Shown here one piece after another: positions 23,541-30,176 of a DNA stretch of 58,575 bases (its first letter is position 1; each line of letters opens with the position of its first letter). Made by a program: the position numbers and the translations under genes. This stretch comes from Gemmatimonadota bacterium (GTDB taxonomy: Bacteria; JAAXHH01), in assembly GCA_009835325.1 (NCBI GenBank), contig VXWP01000039.1, positions 1 to 58,575 of the forward strand, in the 5' to 3' direction. The notes beneath the pieces are model-generated. The model made no database searches. It saw only the letters and a list, made by a program, of their open reading frames with translations, and had not been told where the DNA came from.

Positions 23541-24779
23541 CTATCCCGACCAACGTTCCATCTTCTCCTCATCCAAATTCATGCCCAGCCCCGGACCTTC
23601 GAAAGGAGCGAGTTCACCGCCCTCGAGGGTGAAGGGGCTGGTGCATACATCGTCCTGAAGCAAGCCGGGTCCCACCAGGTCCGAGGGTACCTCGACGCTC
23701 GCCGATGCAACGGCGAGATGCACCGACGCCGCGGTACCGGGTCCCAGTTCGATGGTGCTGCCCAGTAAGGCGGGTATGCCCGCAGTCTCCGCTGCGTGGA
23801 GCAGGCGTCCCGCGCGGCGTAATCCACCTGCCTGGCAGGGGACGACATTGACGATGTCCACGGCGCGGTGGCGGATCAGGGCCGTCAGAAAGGCGTCCCC
23901 GAGATCGGCGACGTGTTCGATGATGGGTATGGGGGAACGGCCGCGGACGCTTGCCAGCGCTTCGGCAATGCCCTCCGCATCCGCTTCGATACGGGCGGGA
24001 TCCTCCCGCGACATGGGCCGTGAGAGCGCGCGAATCGGCGTCTCACAGGCGTCGGCACCGGCCTCCGCCATGTCGCGCAGCCTCGACAGGGCCTCGTCTT
24101 CCTCCCAGTAACCGCTGGCATCCACCTTGATGTAGGCTTCGGGGCCCGCGATCCTGCGCGCAAGTCGCACCCGCTCGAGGTCCCGTTCGTGGTCCTCGCC
24201 CACCTTGAGCTTGAAGGCCTTCATGCCCGATCCTACCTGGTCGGCGACCTCCCTCTCCAGGGCCTGCAGTTCGTCCTCGAGCGTGGCGTCGCCGCGCAGA
24301 TAGGCCACCCAGGAAACGGTTGCGGCACGCCGGCAACGGCCGCCCAGTAGTTCGTACAGCGGAATGCCGTGTGCCTTCCCGACCAGGTCGAGCAACGCAC
24401 ATTCGACGCCGAAGAGTATCAGTTGCCGGAGTTCGGGGTACCAGTTACCGGGAAGCGCTTCATCGGTCCGGTCATAGAGGCCGCGCCACGTGCGACCGTC
24501 GCCGCCAGCCAGCACGTCACTGCCGGCCAGCACGTCGCCGTCGGCCAGCACGCCGGACAACAGGTCCCGCAGCACCGCGGGCGAAGGGGCGTCCATCCGC
24601 GGCGCGATGTCGGAGATCTCGCCGATACCGGTCAAGCCGTCCGGAGTCTTCAATTCGATGATCTGGTAGGTAGACCGACCGTGGTTAATGGTGGCCTTCA
24701 GTTGCTTGGGGTCCGCACAGTAGGTGTCGTAGATGCGTGGGACGGCAACCTGGCGCACGCGGACGTCGGAGATTCGCAT
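23541..24779 (-). CDS. Enolase-superfamily dehydratase/cycloisomerase (glucarate-dehydratase or MLE-like)
   Basis: A 412-residue MR/MLE-type protein. The capping domain holds the conserved INHGRSTYQIIELKT and GEISDIAPR stretches. Barrel landmarks are the KxK strand MKAFKLKVGE, the metal-ligand Asp in YIKVDASGYW, the Glu in ACETPI and a third acid in IPIIEHVADLGD. The terminal GSTIELGPGTAASVHLA is typical. This enzyme keeps all three metal ligands, unlike the copy at 7500-8765. It contains an in-frame insertion of three near-identical hexapeptides (VLADGD, VLAGSD, VLAGGD) in the cap domain. It stands alone, divergent from the TAXI/PspA-like operon. Confidence 0.82.
   Translation of the reverse strand: MRISDVRVRQVAVPRIYDTYCADPKQLKATINHGRSTYQIIELKTPDGLTGIGEISDIAPRMDAPSPAVLRDLLSGVLADGDVLAGSDVLAGGDGRTWRGLYDRTDEALPGNWYPELRQLILFGVECALLDLVGKAHGIPLYELLGGRCRRAATVSWVAYLRGDATLEDELQALEREVADQVGSGMKAFKLKVGEDHERDLERVRLARRIAGPEAYIKVDASGYWEEDEALSRLRDMAEAGADACETPIRALSRPMSREDPARIEADAEGIAEALASVRGRSPIPIIEHVADLGDAFLTALIRHRAVDIVNVVPCQAGGLRRAGRLLHAAETAGIPALLGSTIELGPGTAASVHLAVASASVEVPSDLVGPGLLQDDVCTSPFTLEGGELAPFEGPGLGMNLDEEKMERWSG
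24498..24551. repeat. 18-bp in-frame tandem repeat inside the dehydratase gene
   Basis: Three head-to-tail 18-bp units at 24498, 24516 and 24534, of the form GTCGCCGCCAGCCAGCAC with two to four differences. On the minus strand they encode VLAGGD, VLAGSD and VLADGD, so the reading frame is kept. Confidence 0.85.
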
Positions 24780-24856: not shown

Positions 24857-24890
24857 GCAACTTGCCTGAAAGGTACATAGTCTATATCTT
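24857..24890 (+). promoter_or_regulatory. Candidate promoter of the TAXI/DUF2491/PspA-like operon
   Basis: Two overlapping readings are possible. GCAACT at 24857 and GTCTAT at 24880 are separated by 17 bases, a two-mismatch copy of the ECF-like site found at 18980, 20738 and 41077. TTGCCT at 24862 and TATCTT at 24885, also separated by 17 bases, is a weak sigma-70 alternative. Either would place transcription start 45-50 bases before the ATG at 24942. Confidence 0.35.
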
Positions 24891-24941
24891 TAAAGAGCCA
24901 GAATCCGTACACACAATCCGACTACACAGGGGAAGTACCTC

Positions 24942-26780
24942 ATGTCTCGACATATGAAACTGGTCATGATGACCGGCTTGATCGCGCTGATGGGTGGGTT
25001 TTTGCAGACCGAACCGGGCGCGGAGCGTTCGGTAGCGACCGACCGCTTGCGCTCGGCCGATGACGCGGCACGGATCACAAACGGCGCGGAAATTGCCGGC
25101 CCGATCTCGAAAAGCACGGAAAACGCGGAACGAACGATCCGGGAGATCACCGGTCTGTTCGGTCCTGAGGAAGCCTACGCCCGCCGCGGTTTCGGTGGTT
25201 TCCGGAGTTCGCGTTCCCTTTGGAATCGCCGCAGTTCCTTTGGCCGGCGCAGCCCCTTCGCCCGGAGAAGCACGCCTGCCGCCACGCGCCAGACGCCGGC
25301 GCGCACTACGGGGCAATCCGCCACGCCGGCACGCAGCACCTCGGCCGGGCAGCCCTCGGCCACCGCGGCGCGGTCGACCCGGGCAGGTGCCGCAACCGCC
25401 GGCCGGGCCACGGCGCGGTCTTCGGTCATGGGCCGGCGGGTCCAGAGCGAGACGGCGCGCCGGTCGCTGGCCACGCACCAGTCCAGGCAGGCCGGTTTCG
25501 CCCGGTCGTCCAATTCGGCGGCCAATACGAGCACCTACCGGGACAACGGCCTCTACAACCGGGGCTCGCAGAACCGCACGTCCTACGACAACTACTACGC
25601 GGGTCGAGATAGTTATTACGGGGGCATGGGCTGGAGGACGCCGGGTTACGCCTTCATGTCATACCCCAGCTTCGGCATGTGGGACGCCCTGTTCATGTGG
25701 TCCATGCTGGACATGATGAGCAGCCGCCGTCACTACGCGGTGGCCCATCACCATGCCAACGACCCGGGATACCAGGAATGGCGCGGCGAGGCCGAGCGCC
25801 TGGCCGAGGACAACGAGGAACTGCGGGCTAAGCTGGACGAGCTCGACCGGCAGGTCGCCACGCTGGAAGGCACGCCGAGGGATCCCGAATACCTGCCGCC
25901 CGGCGTTACCCCGGCGATCGCCCTGGCCGCCGAAGTCGTGGCCACCGCCGATCCGAACCAGCCCCGCATCACGGTGAATACGGGGGTGGAGAACGGCAAT
26001 TACCACCGATTCGGCCAGATCCTGCAGTCCCACCTGCCGGATTTCGACGTGATGCTCGAGACGACGGCGGGTTCTGAGGAGAACCTCAACAACCTGGTAC
26101 GGAACCAGGTCGACGCGATCCTCGTGCAGAGCGACATCCTGAACTCCTACCTGCGCAAGAACCCTGACGCGGAAGACCAGCTGGTCGGATTGCAGTCGAC
26201 CCTGTACACCGAGTACGTGCAGCTGATCGTCAACGAGGACGGCGGCATCGCGAGCGTGTCCGACCTCGAGCCGAACACCCATATCGTGTACGTCGGCCCC
26301 CGGGGTTCCGGGACGCACCGGGCCTGGGAGGGCTTCGTCCTGCAGGATCCGAGGTACGGGGAATTCAACACGCGGTTCGCCAGCTACGAGGAAGCGCTGA
26401 GCCAGGTGTCTGAAAACGCCAACGCGGTCATGCTGTTCGTCGCCGGCCTCAACTCGGAACTGCTCAAAGAGGCGGACCGGCAGTACGGACTGCAGTTGAG
26501 CATGGTCGCCGTGGATGAGCACTATTTCAGCACGGCCGTGGACCAGTTCGGCAACACGATCTACGAAGTGGCGACGATCCCCCACGAGACCTATCCCGAG
26601 CTGCAGGAAGGCTGGCTCTTCGGCTATTTCGACAGCAGCGTGGAGACGCTCACAGTGGACGCCATCCTGATCCTGTCCAAGCAGTGGGTGGATACCTACG
26701 GCAGCAAGCCGATGACCCTCTTCGAGGACGCCCTGTGGCGGTCCATCGACGACATCAAGCCCATCGTGGGCGAGGAGTAG
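24942..26780 (+). CDS. Large exported TAXI-family binding protein with low-complexity and coiled-coil N-terminal region
   Basis: A 612-residue protein. Residues 1-27 look like a signal or anchor (MKLVMMTGLIALMGGFLQ). Residues 80-200 are almost only Arg, Ser, Ala, Thr and Gly. Residues 200-235 are rich in Tyr/Gly/Asn (YDNYYAGRDSYYGGMGW), 237-260 are a Met/Trp/Phe-rich hydrophobic stretch (MWDALFMWSMLDMM), and 275-310 form a coiled coil (RLAEDNEELRAKLDELDRQV). Residues 340-612 match TAXI-type TRAP solute-binding domains (ITVNTGVENGNYHRFGQIL, NQVDAILVQSDIL, IVYVGPRGSGTHRAWEGF). No TRAP permease lies nearby, so uptake is unlikely; ligand sensing is more plausible. It begins an operon with DUF2491 and a PspA-like protein (gap 12 bp). 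GGGGAAG precedes the start. Confidence 0.8.
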   Translation: MSRHMKLVMMTGLIALMGGFLQTEPGAERSVATDRLRSADDAARITNGAEIAGPISKSTENAERTIREITGLFGPEEAYARRGFGGFRSSRSLWNRRSSFGRRSPFARRSTPAATRQTPARTTGQSATPARSTSAGQPSATAARSTRAGAATAGRATARSSVMGRRVQSETARRSLATHQSRQAGFARSSNSAANTSTYRDNGLYNRGSQNRTSYDNYYAGRDSYYGGMGWRTPGYAFMSYPSFGMWDALFMWSMLDMMSSRRHYAVAHHHANDPGYQEWRGEAERLAEDNEELRAKLDELDRQVATLEGTPRDPEYLPPGVTPAIALAAEVVATADPNQPRITVNTGVENGNYHRFGQILQSHLPDFDVMLETTAGSEENLNNLVRNQVDAILVQSDILNSYLRKNPDAEDQLVGLQSTLYTEYVQLIVNEDGGIASVSDLEPNTHIVYVGPRGSGTHRAWEGFVLQDPRYGEFNTRFASYEEALSQVSENANAVMLFVAGLNSELLKEADRQYGLQLSMVAVDEHYFSTAVDQFGNTIYEVATIPHETYPELQEGWLFGYFDSSVETLTVDAILILSKQWVDTYGSKPMTLFEDALWRSIDDIKPIVGEE

Positions 26781-26792
26781 CGCCAGGGCCCG

Positions 26793-27494
26793 ATGAGCTT
26801 TCACATCATTCGTTCCGTAGCGAAGAAGCAGGCGAAAGAGGCGGCTGGTTTCTTTCGGAAGAAACCCGAGCGGGTCGATCAGGACCTGCCCCTGGGCGTC
26901 GCCATCGACCGGCTGGTCGACATCGACGCCGTCGCGTCGTCCACCTTTGTCGGCCTCGTCCACTTCGACTTTCCCTCCTTTCCCCTGGCTATCGAGGCGA
27001 TCGGAAAGATCGATCTCGGCGAAGGGGCCATGGCCTATCGGTGCTATCTCCAGGGGACCTCGGCGTTTCTCCAGGTGGTGTCGGACCACGGAGAGCCCGT
27101 GGAATGCCGCCTGTACGTGCTCGACCGGGATCTGTATCCCCATTCGGAGGAAGTCTGGGAACAGTGGCTGAACGGGGAAAACGGCATCATCGGATCACCG
27201 GAAGTGCTGCACGGCGAAGGGGAGGAAAGAAGCTACCAGCGGGAATGGATGGACGGCGACGGACAGGCGGCGCCGATACAGGTCGACGAGCGGATCATTC
27301 GCGACGCGTACGGAGAGCAGGTCTTCGAGGAAACCCAGCAGGCCATGTCCTACTTCCGGGTGGCAAGTGGAGACCCCCACAACCCGGAAGACCCCGAGCG
27401 CGTGGATGAATTCCTGTTGATCAGCGCGGGCGACGGGGTTATAGAACTGTACCTGGGCGTGGCATTGATGCTCGAGGAAGTCACGGTTATTTAA
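26793..27494 (+). CDS. DUF2491-family protein (YjfK-like)
   Basis: A 233-residue soluble protein that I assign to DUF2491, the family of E. coli YjfK. The recognisable pattern is AIGKIDLGEGAMAYRCYLQGTSAFLQ in the middle, WLNGENGIIGSPEV, then FLLISAGDGVIELYLGVAL at the end. The biochemical function of the family is unknown. In E. coli, yjfK sits beside yjfJ (a PspA paralogue), and here too the next gene is PspA-like. The N terminus FHIIRSVAKKQAKEAAGFF is amphipathic and resembles the start of the next protein (IWKFLSRVGKKQAGNALESF), as if both touch the same membrane surface. The gap to the next gene is 18 bp. Confidence 0.78.
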   Translation: MSFHIIRSVAKKQAKEAAGFFRKKPERVDQDLPLGVAIDRLVDIDAVASSTFVGLVHFDFPSFPLAIEAIGKIDLGEGAMAYRCYLQGTSAFLQVVSDHGEPVECRLYVLDRDLYPHSEEVWEQWLNGENGIIGSPEVLHGEGEERSYQREWMDGDGQAAPIQVDERIIRDAYGEQVFEETQQAMSYFRVASGDPHNPEDPERVDEFLLISAGDGVIELYLGVALMLEEVTVI

Positions 27495-27512
27495 AAACGA
27501 AAGGATGAAAAA

Positions 27513-28283
27513 ATGATCTGGAAGTTTCTCTCCCGCGTCGGCAAGAAACAGGCCGGCAACGCCCTGGAGTCCTTCACCCAGGCCGTGGTGGCCTTCGACC
27601 CGGAAACCGCCTCCGAGGCGCAGATCTCCCTCATGGAAGAGGAACTCGACAAGCTCGGGAAGCGGGTCGGCAAGGCCGAGATGGACGTGAAGAAGGACCA
27701 TGAAGAGACGCAGGCACTGTTGACGCAGTACGACCGGTACCTGGCCGCCGCCGAACGGATCGAAGGCCAGCTCGAAGAGGCGGATGAGGGCCAGCGGCCC
27801 AAGCTGGAGGAGAGTCTTGAAAAGCTGGTCGCGGAACTGGAGCGTCTGAACCCGGAGATCGAACGGGAACGCCAGGAGGACCAGGAAGCGGAGGCCTTCG
27901 CGACCGAGCTGCGCCAGGCCTACGATGTGGCGGCGGAGAAGCTCAAAAAGGCGCAGGTCCAGCTGAAACAGGCCCAGCGACGCATGGAGCAGGCCCGGAT
28001 GAAGAAGGAGCGGGCCCTCGAACGCGCCGAGGGCGTGCGGCAGGCCTCGGGGCTGAGCAGTTCAATGGGCGGACTCGATACGGCCCTCAACGCCATGGAC
28101 ATGGAGACGGAGAAGGCGGAGACCACCTCCCGTGCCGCAGAACTGAAGATCGGCGCCTTCGGCCAGACCGAAATCACCGACGATCCAAACATCGCGGCGG
28201 CCCTGGAAGCGGCCGACAAACCCGCGCTGCCCGCATCCTCGACGCGGGACCGGCTGGCGGCCCTGCGTTCCAGGAAGTCCTGA
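27513..28283 (+). CDS. PspA/IM30 (ESCRT-III-like) family coiled-coil protein, YjfJ-like
   Basis: A 256-residue, almost entirely helical protein. The N-terminal amphipathic helix IWKFLSRVGKKQAGNAL is followed by long charged coiled-coil segments (about 35-170: LMEEELDKLGKRVGKAEMDVKKD, AAEKLKKAQVQLKQAQRRMEQA). A Ser/Met/Gly linker then leads to a short C-terminal helix RDRLAALRSR. This is the architecture of PspA/Vipp1/IM30 proteins, which polymerise on damaged inner membranes, and particularly of the YjfJ branch, given the DUF2491 partner. AAAGGA precedes the ATG. A terminator-like hairpin follows, so this probably ends the three-gene transcript, with partial readthrough to the channel. Confidence 0.75.
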   Translation: MIWKFLSRVGKKQAGNALESFTQAVVAFDPETASEAQISLMEEELDKLGKRVGKAEMDVKKDHEETQALLTQYDRYLAAAERIEGQLEEADEGQRPKLEESLEKLVAELERLNPEIERERQEDQEAEAFATELRQAYDVAAEKLKKAQVQLKQAQRRMEQARMKKERALERAEGVRQASGLSSSMGGLDTALNAMDMETEKAETTSRAAELKIGAFGQTEITDDPNIAAALEAADKPALPASSTRDRLAALRSRKS

Positions 28284-28305
28284 GACCGTCACAGGTCTAG
28301 CATTC

Positions 28306-28350
28306 AAAGGCTCACCCGATGCGAGAAGCGGAAGGTGGGCCTTTCTCTTT
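28306..28350 (+). terminator. Intrinsic terminator between the PspA-like and K+ channel genes
   Basis: AAAGGCTCACC at 28306-28316 pairs with GGTGGGCCTTT at 28334-28344 (11 bp with one G-U), loop of 17 bases, followed by CTCTTT. It should stop or reduce transcription leaving the PspA-like gene. Confidence 0.65.
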
Positions 28351-28396
28351 AGATATGCCTTAGATAAGCCCACCGCATTCACCCAGGAGGCAAACC

Positions 28397-29236
28397 ATGC
28401 CGGGAATCCTGTCCTCCCTCCTTGCGGCCGTACACCGTTTCGGTCCCTACGTACTGGCCGTCAACATGATCCTCTATTTCATCGAGTTGCAGTATACCCA
28501 GACGCGCAGCAGCCTGGACGCCGGCGCCTGGGCAGGGTTCATCTGGATCGAACGGGTCATCGCCGGGTTCTTCACCCTGGAATACGTGCTGCGCATCAGG
28601 CTGGCACCGCACAAGGGGAAGTACCTGCGCAGCGGGCTCGGGTTGATCGATCTGATCAGCATCCTGCCCTTCTGGATCGGATTCTATCCCGGCCTGACCC
28701 AGGAGCAGCTCGGCCTGGTGCGCGGCGCGCGGACGCTCCGGCTGCTCAAGATGTTCCGGTACAGCCCCAAGCTGGCGGAGTTCGCCCGGTCCATGTATAC
28801 CAATCGCGTCCGGGTCATTCCCATCTTCCTCATTACCATCATGTACCTGATGATCAGCTCCACCGTGATCTACGAGGTGGAACGCCGCGCCCAGCCGGAG
28901 GTATTCAATGTCTACGGCGACAGCATCTGGTGGGCCGTGGTGACCTCCACCACGGTGGGGTACGGGGACAAGTACCCGGTCACGCCCCTGGGACAGGGCG
29001 CCACCGTCCTGATGATGATGGTGGGCATCGGTATCGTGGGCATGATCTTCGGGTTTTTCGCGGACAGCTTCCACGACTCCAGGCAGCCGCTGGAACCCAC
29101 GTTAATGGAGGCGTACTGCAGAGGGGTTCAAGAAGAGGGGGCGGAGGGCCGAACGGTGCAGGCCCTGCGGGAGACCCACCGCAGCAACCCGCAATTCCTC
29201 ATCTTCGCCGATACGGTGGACCGGTATATCGGTTAG
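28397..29236 (+). CDS. Voltage-gated-type potassium channel
   Basis: A 279-residue six-helix channel of the VIC superfamily. S1-S4 occupy about residues 15-125; the S4 voltage sensor is RGARTLRLLKMFRY (109-122) with regularly spaced Arg. S5 is IPIFLITIMYLMISSTVIY. The pore helix and filter read SIWWAVVTSTTVGYGDKY, with the K+ signature TVGYGD at 186-191. S6 is ATVLMMMVGIGIVGMIFGFFAD. The short cytosolic C terminus has no RCK domain. A strong ribosome site (AGGAGG) precedes the ATG. K+ channels are recurrent neighbours of PspA/DUF2491-type clusters, so it probably belongs functionally with the upstream operon despite the terminator between them. Confidence 0.9.
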   Translation: MPGILSSLLAAVHRFGPYVLAVNMILYFIELQYTQTRSSLDAGAWAGFIWIERVIAGFFTLEYVLRIRLAPHKGKYLRSGLGLIDLISILPFWIGFYPGLTQEQLGLVRGARTLRLLKMFRYSPKLAEFARSMYTNRVRVIPIFLITIMYLMISSTVIYEVERRAQPEVFNVYGDSIWWAVVTSTTVGYGDKYPVTPLGQGATVLMMMVGIGIVGMIFGFFADSFHDSRQPLEPTLMEAYCRGVQEEGAEGRTVQALRETHRSNPQFLIFADTVDRYIG

Positions 29237-29250
29237 GTGGAAGGAACGAA

Positions 29251-30081
29251 CTAAAGGGATGAAGTCTCTTCGGACTCGGTCTCGGGATCAGTCTCCGGCT
29301 CGTACGTCCCGATGGATTCCTTGAGGGAAACCAGCCTGCGGAGCCGTCTCCGGTCTTTGGGCGTGAAACGATCCGTGTAGGCGTCGTAGATGGGTTGCTC
29401 GGGCGCCCCGTCGATGCGTGTGACGATCACGTAAAAGTAGAGGTTCTCCACGTCCGCTGGAGCCTTCTTCCATACCGGCGACAGCAACGCGAAGTTCCAG
29501 ACGGCCCGCTCGTCCGGTCCCAGGTCCTTGCCTTCCGTGAGCCGGATATTGTAGTTGAAGTCGTCATCCAGGATCCACTTCCGGGGTTCGTTTCTCATGA
29601 GCGATCCGCGGAAATAGACCTTCGAGATCCGGTGTTCGGTCCGGTTGTGTATGGAGAGTTTCACGACGGACTGGCCCCGCTGCACGTAGTACTCGACCCC
29701 GCGCACCCTCACGTCCTTGAGACTTTCCATGGCGGAGTCCGTGTTCTCCTGCTTCTCCTCGAGGGCCTCAATGGCCTTGTTCACCCGCTCGTTCCACTCC
29801 GCGAAGATGTCCGTCGCGTCCATTCCGTCCAGCCGGCCGCGGATCCGGTTCTGAATGGCGTCCGACGCGTTCAGCGAGCTGATCACGTTGTCGCTGTAGA
29901 GGTACTCGAAGGCATCCAGCACGTCGTCGAGTCTTTCCTGGTCGTCCTCGGCCAGGGTGGCCTTGACCTCGGCGATGGTTGCATCGAAGGTGTCGACGTC
30001 CGTACCGTCTATGGTTGGACCGGACTTGCAGGCCATCGCGACCAGCGCGAGCCCCGCGGTAAACAGACTCAGGCGCACCAT
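29251..30081 (-). CDS. Lipoprotein, possibly DUF6694-like N-terminal domain plus beta-sandwich
   Basis: A 276-residue lipoprotein: signal RLSLFTAGLALVAMAC with the lipobox VAMAC at about residue 18. The N-terminal domain TIDGTDVDTFDATIAEVKATL...LDDVLDAFEYL...RLDGMDATDIFAEWNE recalls the small DUF6694 lipoprotein family. The C-terminal half (about 120-240) is beta-rich (VEYYVQRGQSVVKLSIHNRT, ISKVYFRGSL) and could be an Ig-like or FxLYD-like domain. The tail is Glu/Thr rich. I chose the ATG at 30081 because AGGAG lies nine bases before it; the leader carries the 13-base GGCAGGAGACGAA twice, so ATG at 30099 is a rival start. It converges on the K+ channel gene with a 14-bp gap. Confidence 0.6.
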   Translation of the reverse strand: MVRLSLFTAGLALVAMACKSGPTIDGTDVDTFDATIAEVKATLAEDDQERLDDVLDAFEYLYSDNVISSLNASDAIQNRIRGRLDGMDATDIFAEWNERVNKAIEALEEKQENTDSAMESLKDVRVRGVEYYVQRGQSVVKLSIHNRTEHRISKVYFRGSLMRNEPRKWILDDDFNYNIRLTEGKDLGPDERAVWNFALLSPVWKKAPADVENLYFYVIVTRIDGAPEQPIYDAYTDRFTPKDRRRLRRLVSLKESIGTYEPETDPETESEETSSL

Positions 30082-30176
30082 TGTTCGTCTCCTGCCCATT
30101 CGTCTCCTGCCGAACACGCTGACGTAAGCATTTCGCTCATGTAAATACTATCACGGTTTGTGCTGAATGTACAAGA

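Follow-up and report, generated by a model that had tools for sequence, protein, structure and literature searches.

A conserved TAXI-DUF2491 gene cassette in Latescibacterota: a candidate ligand-sensing variant of the YjfJ/YjfK envelope-stress module

We report a computational analysis of four adjacent genes, whose products are, in order, an exported protein ending in a TAXI domain, a member of the DUF2491 family, a coiled-coil protein and a K+ channel. They lie on contig C39 (VXWP01000039.1) of a bacterial genome of 3.68 Mb in 119 contigs (G000), and the stretch analysed, hereafter the window, comprises 58,575 nucleotides of this contig. Near relatives place the genome in the phylum Latescibacterota, some of them carrying the older label Gemmatimonadetes. 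An earlier note, made from the sequence alone, had read the block as a probable membrane-stress system with the TAXI domain as its periplasmic sensor or ligand receptor. The comparisons described below lead us to give an even chance to the view that the cassette is a ligand-sensing variant of the YjfJ/YjfK/K+-channel envelope-stress module, with the TAXI protein as the sensing part.

The four-gene block and its distribution

The block contains the following features:

24942..26780, + strand: TAXI-domain protein gene, 612 amino acids (PF16868, TIGR02122, alignments, composition and hydropathy)
25590..25930, + strand: MWD module within the TAXI gene (tblastn, profile and alignment; shared with DUF2491 proteins of Azospirillum, Bosea and G048)
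26793..27494, + strand: DUF2491 protein gene, 233 amino acids (PF10679, alignments)
27513..28283, + strand: coiled-coil protein gene, 256 amino acids (predicted PspA/Vipp1-like helix layout)
28306..28344, + strand: hairpin in the gap before the channel gene (same fold in the window and eight relatives)
28397..29236, + strand: K+ channel gene, 279 amino acids (PF00520, TVGYGD, six helices)

All four open reading frames lie where the earlier note had placed them, on the + strand. The DUF2491 gene starts 12 nucleotides past the TAXI stop codon and the coiled-coil gene 18 nucleotides past DUF2491, with the channel gene following 113 nucleotides past the coiled coil.

The TAXI protein is present in 14 of the 16 genomes of the phylum and DUF2491 in the same 14, the remaining two (G013 and G015) having neither. 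The four genes keep the same order and strand in the nine Latescibacterota neighbourhoods compared in detail, which include another genus (G001) and another order (G014), and three further neighbourhoods from named genomes have the same four-gene order. The flanks differ: an enolase-family gene and a PfkB gene border the block in the window's genus, but neither turned up nearby in G001 or G014. The enolase-family gene was rejected as a part of the cassette, because in other genera it does not adjoin the block. A chance neighbourhood was rejected too, since the genes stay together across phyla, a second order included, while the flanks change.

The sampling covers two phyla, and open reading frames in the relatives were called by a custom script. 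In a scan of named genomes, the single relative outside the Latescibacterota was Candidatus Azophilus lithoversatilis (Gammaproteobacteria; G016, locus L053), whose cassette has the TAXI, DUF2491 and coiled-coil genes in the same order, at approximately 35, 29 and 27% identity, respectively. Across 399 Pseudomonadota genomes, five TAXI proteins stood out in a profile search, scoring at least 134 bits against 63.5 for the next best, and at four of these five loci (G016, G053, G157 and G185; hence 4 of the 399 genomes) the DUF2491 and coiled-coil genes come after the TAXI gene. At the fifth locus, in G065, neither gene was found within the 12 kb fetched. The search across genomes that the earlier note had proposed thus finds TAXI, DUF2491 and coiled-coil genes repeatedly adjoining in both Latescibacterota and Pseudomonadota. 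Among 20 Pseudomonadota DUF2491 neighbourhoods, YjfJ is present in 19 and the new coiled coil in none of those 19; YjfJ, in turn, was not found in the loci carrying the new coiled coil. A K+ channel stands beside DUF2491 in 13 of the 19 YjfJ loci; the channels whose full sequences were inspected appear, by eye, to be RCK-linked. No TAXI relative was found in viral contigs and no TAXI-DUF2491 locus on plasmids; the plasmid collection searched contributed the Alphaproteobacteria described below.

Several features close to these loci are recorded here in their own right. In the window's genus an enolase-superfamily (MR_MLE) gene (window 23541-24779, - strand) is divergent from the TAXI gene. Beyond the channel, a lipoprotein-like protein belonging to no known family is encoded at 29251-30117 (- strand); it is also near the block in G001 (L019:6279-7094) and G014 (L020:1956-2741), in both of which its gene adjoins that of a protein resembling, by eye, an L,D-transpeptidase. 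Adjoining the G053 cassette, at L092:3043-5938, are a Na+/H+ exchanger with a TrkA_N domain, on the opposite strand, and an arrestin-like gene (a weak match) directly past the coiled coil. Finally, G310 (L144:6519-8147) carries DUF2491 and coiled-coil genes, with no TAXI, DUF350 or YjfJ found nearby, and may represent a third layout.

The TAXI protein and the module it shares with DUF2491 proteins

The TAXI protein consists of a signal peptide (residues ~1-27), a basic low-complexity stretch (~70-215), an MWD/coiled-coil module (~220-325) and the TAXI domain (~327-612). The TAXI half matches PF16868 with 47.3 bits (cut-off 27) over residues 360-553, and the NCBI model TIGR02122 with 70.7 bits, under its cut-off of 84.35, over residues 327-581. 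The signal peptide and the PF16868 score agree with the exported TAXI-type protein of the earlier note, though its label 'giant' was too strong for 612 residues. Cysteine is absent from the sequence and the protein is, therefore, without a lipobox. The DUF2491 assignment is likewise sound (PF10679, 68.6 bits against a cut-off of 25); this protein has neither a signal peptide nor a clear transmembrane helix, and our searches gave it neither a relative of solved structure nor a connection to any other Pfam family.

The MWD module, of approximately 100 residues, forms part of the unusual N-terminal half of the TAXI protein and has the consensus YGG-W...PSFGMWDxLFxWxMLD...DPGYxEWRxEAxRLAxDNxELRxKLxxLD...PRDPxYLPPGV. 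Its identity with the periplasmic region of DUF2491-family proteins of Azospirillum is 48-57% (tblastn, E values down to 1e-26), a match found also by profile (E 4e-32) and by alignment. These Azospirillum proteins are built, in order, of a signal peptide, a low-complexity stretch, the MWD module, a transmembrane helix followed by arginines, and DUF2491, and the MWD-transmembrane-DUF2491 fusion occurs also in Bosea and in G048. The genes after the fusion encode DUF350 and then a member of the same coiled-coil family as in the window. Thus the Azospirillum and Bosea loci, with their membrane-anchored DUF2491 proteins, resemble the window in module and coiled-coil family, but their module is joined through the membrane to DUF2491 rather than to a TAXI domain, and they have a DUF350 gene and no channel gene. 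Among the TAXI cassettes, those of Latescibacterota and G016 show the module clearly; in G053 it is degenerate, and in G157 and G185 unrecognisable. Because one group has it attached to TAXI and another, via the membrane, to DUF2491, the module provides the strongest single sign of cooperation, suggesting from sequence comparison that the TAXI and DUF2491 proteins may work together.

VcGluP, a characterised TAXI protein, contacts glutamate through Y45, S75, Q93 and E125, of which Y45 and Q93 are the most important (PMC11574862). The equivalent residues of the window protein are, by sequence alignment, Y354, S378, Q396 and E424, and all four are kept in 9/9 cassette TAXI domains, compared to 10/25 of the other Pseudomonadota TAXI proteins in the alignment. 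The latter are those most similar to the cassette proteins, with L074 (a DUF2491 fusion) and L094 (a duplicate of L065) excluded, and the counts were made from the table. As the alignment is sequence-based and the comparison set lies nearest to the cassette, we treat this pattern as a lead and not as a test of binding: the four retained residues suggest that the TAXI domain would bind L-glutamate or a similar amino acid. A predicted structure of the TAXI half, made without an alignment, was unusable (pLDDT 36.9). In a tree of TAXI proteins, eight of the nine cassette members fall in one clade (support 98/95), whilst neither G016 nor G065 has a settled place, so that there may have been one recruitment or two.

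Like the solute-binding proteins of tripartite ATP-independent periplasmic (TRAP) transporters, VcGluP and TtGluBP, the window protein belongs to the PF16868 family and has the Tyr, Ser, Gln and Glu of the glutamate site. It differs from them in its extra 320-residue N-terminal half, its TIGR02122 score below cut-off and the lack of an adjoining permease gene. A precedent is TAXI-GltS of Bordetella pertussis (BP0403), where the TAXI protein likewise carries extra N-terminal domains and adjoins no TRAP permease gene, but its partner is a GltS symporter, whereas the partners in the window are DUF2491, the coiled coil and the K+ channel (PMC12344293).

The coiled-coil protein, the hairpin and the K+ channel

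The earlier note described the third protein as PspA-type, which fails by sequence and is suggested by predicted fold. Sequence identity as PspA is unsupported by Pfam, NCBIfam, a PDB profile search or BLAST against YjfJ. An AlphaFold model (pLDDT 75.8, pTM 0.50), by contrast, has the helix layout of PspA/Vipp1, with helices predicted at residues 2-27, 35-89, 95-178, 187-216, 225-235 and 244-255, and a Foldseek search of this model against the PDB places Vipp1/PspA structures at all of ranks 1-11, most of these matches spanning nearly the whole protein. The protein also occupies the place of YjfJ beside DUF2491. It resembles PspA/Vipp1 (bacterial ESCRT-III) in its predicted helix layout, its top fold matches and its genomic position in place of YjfJ, and differs in having no sequence-profile match; judged on its model and genomic place, it is probably a divergent PspA/ESCRT-III relative outside PF04012.

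The hairpin has stem arms AAAGGCTCACC...GGTGGGCCTTT followed by a T-rich stretch, and folds at -21 to -26 kcal/mol in the window and in eight relatives; the hairpin before the channel, where the earlier note had put a terminator, is real. In the most distant relative (G014/L020) the stem sequence is largely different and the fold the same, which implies that it is the shape that is kept. An automated terminator scan did not flag the hairpin, probably because the loop exceeds the length the scan allows. It is probably a terminator or attenuator, and, read in this way, would have the channel gene transcribed in part separately from the rest.

The fourth protein is, as first described, a six-helix K+ channel: it matches PF00520 with 103.6 bits and has the filter TVGYGD, an arginine-rich S4 (RGARTLRLLKMFR) and no RCK domain, and its nearest solved chains are voltage-gated (Kv) channels (E 5e-21). 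A channel gene in G016 (L053:10915-11898), approximately 460 nucleotides past the coiled coil, encodes instead an SBP_bac_3 amino-acid-binding domain with a TVGYGD pore, its nearest solved relative being the bacterial ionotropic glutamate receptor 2pyy. The K+ channels beside DUF2491 loci are thus of three architectures, namely Kv, RCK-linked and glutamate-receptor type.

A proposed receptor for a membrane module, and the alternatives

The earlier note was correct in pointing to yjfJ and yjfK as neighbours in E. coli. Ravi et al. 2024 describe, as the third of their operon groups, loci in which DUF2491 occurs together with PspA, a K+ channel, a spermidine-related ligase, DUF350 and DUF1190, and their paper does not mention TAXI (PMC11237479). 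This group corresponds to E. coli yjfIJKLMC, which has no channel. In the literature searched theirs is the only paper naming DUF2491, and we found there no description of a TAXI-DUF2491-coiled-coil cassette, of the shared MWD module or of the coiled-coil family. The linkage of DUF2491, PspA and K+ channel was already published, and it is the TAXI link that was not found described. New relative to Ravi et al. are the TAXI protein, the MWD module and the coiled-coil family. The window resembles YjfIJKLMC-type operons, for which a membrane-stress context has been proposed, in having DUF2491 next to a PspA-type protein and, as in many of them, a K+ channel; it differs in its Kv rather than RCK-linked channel, its non-PF04012 coiled coil and its TAXI protein. 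Neither in the window nor in the other TAXI cassettes did we find DUF2170, YjfJ, DUF350, DUF1190 or an ATP-grasp (peptide-spermidine) ligase at E 1e-3, the searches for YjfI, YjfJ, YjfL, YjfM and YjfC being made with single-sequence profiles, which may miss distant forms.

The earlier note's placing of the TAXI protein in one module with DUF2491, a PspA-like protein and a K+ channel is supported by the repeated adjacency of the genes in two phyla, the lack of a permease nearby and the fusion of the N-terminal module to DUF2491. That the TAXI protein acts as a periplasmic ligand receptor whose output goes to a DUF2491/PspA-like membrane module, to which a K+ channel is attached, is the likeliest reading, and we give it an even chance. 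Several observations weigh against it. There is no visible transmembrane helix after the signal peptide of the Latescibacterota TAXI protein, and a path to DUF2491 is not apparent. The channel of the window lies behind the hairpin, the stretches fetched around the G053, G157 and G185 cassettes yielded no K+ channel, and the alphaproteobacterial MWD-DUF2491 loci have no adjoining channel gene. PF04012 (PspA/IM30) matches neither the window coiled coil nor anything else in G000, a comparison of coiled-coil and YjfJ profiles brings only the N-terminal helix into alignment (66%), and the best Foldseek E value to Vipp1/PspA, 0.005, is marginal. To these are added the presence in G000 of a DctQM pair without DctP and, among the 15 genomes searched, the lack of DctM in G013 and G015, both of which are without the cassette.

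These last two points are the ground for the main alternative, in which the TAXI protein is a transport receptor feeding an unlinked DctQM, its place before DUF2491 reflecting co-regulation only. The absence of a TRAP permease claimed in the earlier note holds at the locus, where the neighbouring genes scanned gave no permease match, but not in the genome: the only DctM of G000 lies, with a separate DctQ, on contig C113 (L025:9220-11120), unlinked to the cassette, and no DctP-family protein was found in G000. The note had named TRAP partners elsewhere as evidence against its reading, and on this the genome gives no clean answer. The pair is conserved at 61-98% identity in G001, G005, G007 and G014, and the TAXI protein could serve it, given the lone DctQM pair and the DctM absences in cassette-less genomes, as well as its intact binding-site residues. 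We think this unlikely nonetheless. Characterised TAXI permeases are DctQ-DctM fusions, and in G000 the two are separate proteins, encoded on a different contig from the cassette; DctM was not found in G012, which carries the cassette and has a 90%-complete assembly; and two absences alone make the co-occurrence of DctM and cassette weak. The TAXI protein, furthermore, contains an additional module that elsewhere forms part of DUF2491 fusions, and its gene keeps the same neighbours in different phyla. A C-terminal extension is reported for the characterised TAXI permeases (PMC11574862).

It might also be argued that the coiled coil is an unrelated helical protein and no kin of PspA/ESCRT-III, the cassette being then an envelope-assembly scaffold. 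PF04012 reaches only one of 13 coiled-coil relatives, and that at E 0.048, NCBIfam returns weak SMC coiled-coil matches alone, and several unrelated coiled coils stand further down the Foldseek list. The eleven top matches, mostly near full length, the agreement in helix layout, the alignment of the N-terminal helix to YjfJ and the replacement of YjfJ beside DUF2491 nevertheless speak for kinship, and we regard the scaffold as improbable. More improbable still, to our minds, is a set of neighbours without joint function, whose TAXI adjacency in Pseudomonadota came about by transfer of one cluster. The rarity of the cassette among the 399 Pseudomonadota genomes and the single clade holding most cassette TAXI proteins would fit such a history, yet the proteins of G016 are only ~27-38% identical to those of Latescibacterota and order, strand and module are kept. 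A cluster that stays intact over such divergence suggests joint function, and the module-DUF2491 fusion is independent evidence.

Returning to the reading of the TAXI protein as a receptor for the membrane module, we infer the role of the cassette, and with it ligand, signalling and repair, from sequence and predicted structure. The TAXI domain would bind an L-glutamate-like solute, for example one leaked during membrane damage or osmotic downshift, and, ligand-bound, would pass a signal by way of its N-terminal module to the inner membrane and to DUF2491. The latter would control how the PspA-like filament assembles at the membrane, and membrane potential or K+ content would be adjusted by the K+ channel. 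A bolder version, which we offer as a guess and consider unlikely, has the receptor detecting leaked glutamate itself and, via DUF2491, triggering a branch of ESCRT-III unrecognised by sequence together with dedicated K+ channels. This guess draws on the site residues, the glutamate-receptor channel of G016 and the role of K+ glutamate as the chief osmotic salt pair of many bacteria.

YjfK (DUF2491) is a protein without an explanation, and the variant described here suggests for it both a chemical input, in the form of a ligand with a predicted glutamate-type site, and a topology, in that a periplasmic module is joined to cytoplasmic DUF2491 in Azospirillum. It adds, in addition, a PspA-like family as a new candidate and, following TAXI-GltS, a second type of TAXI protein that has seemingly departed from TRAP transport.

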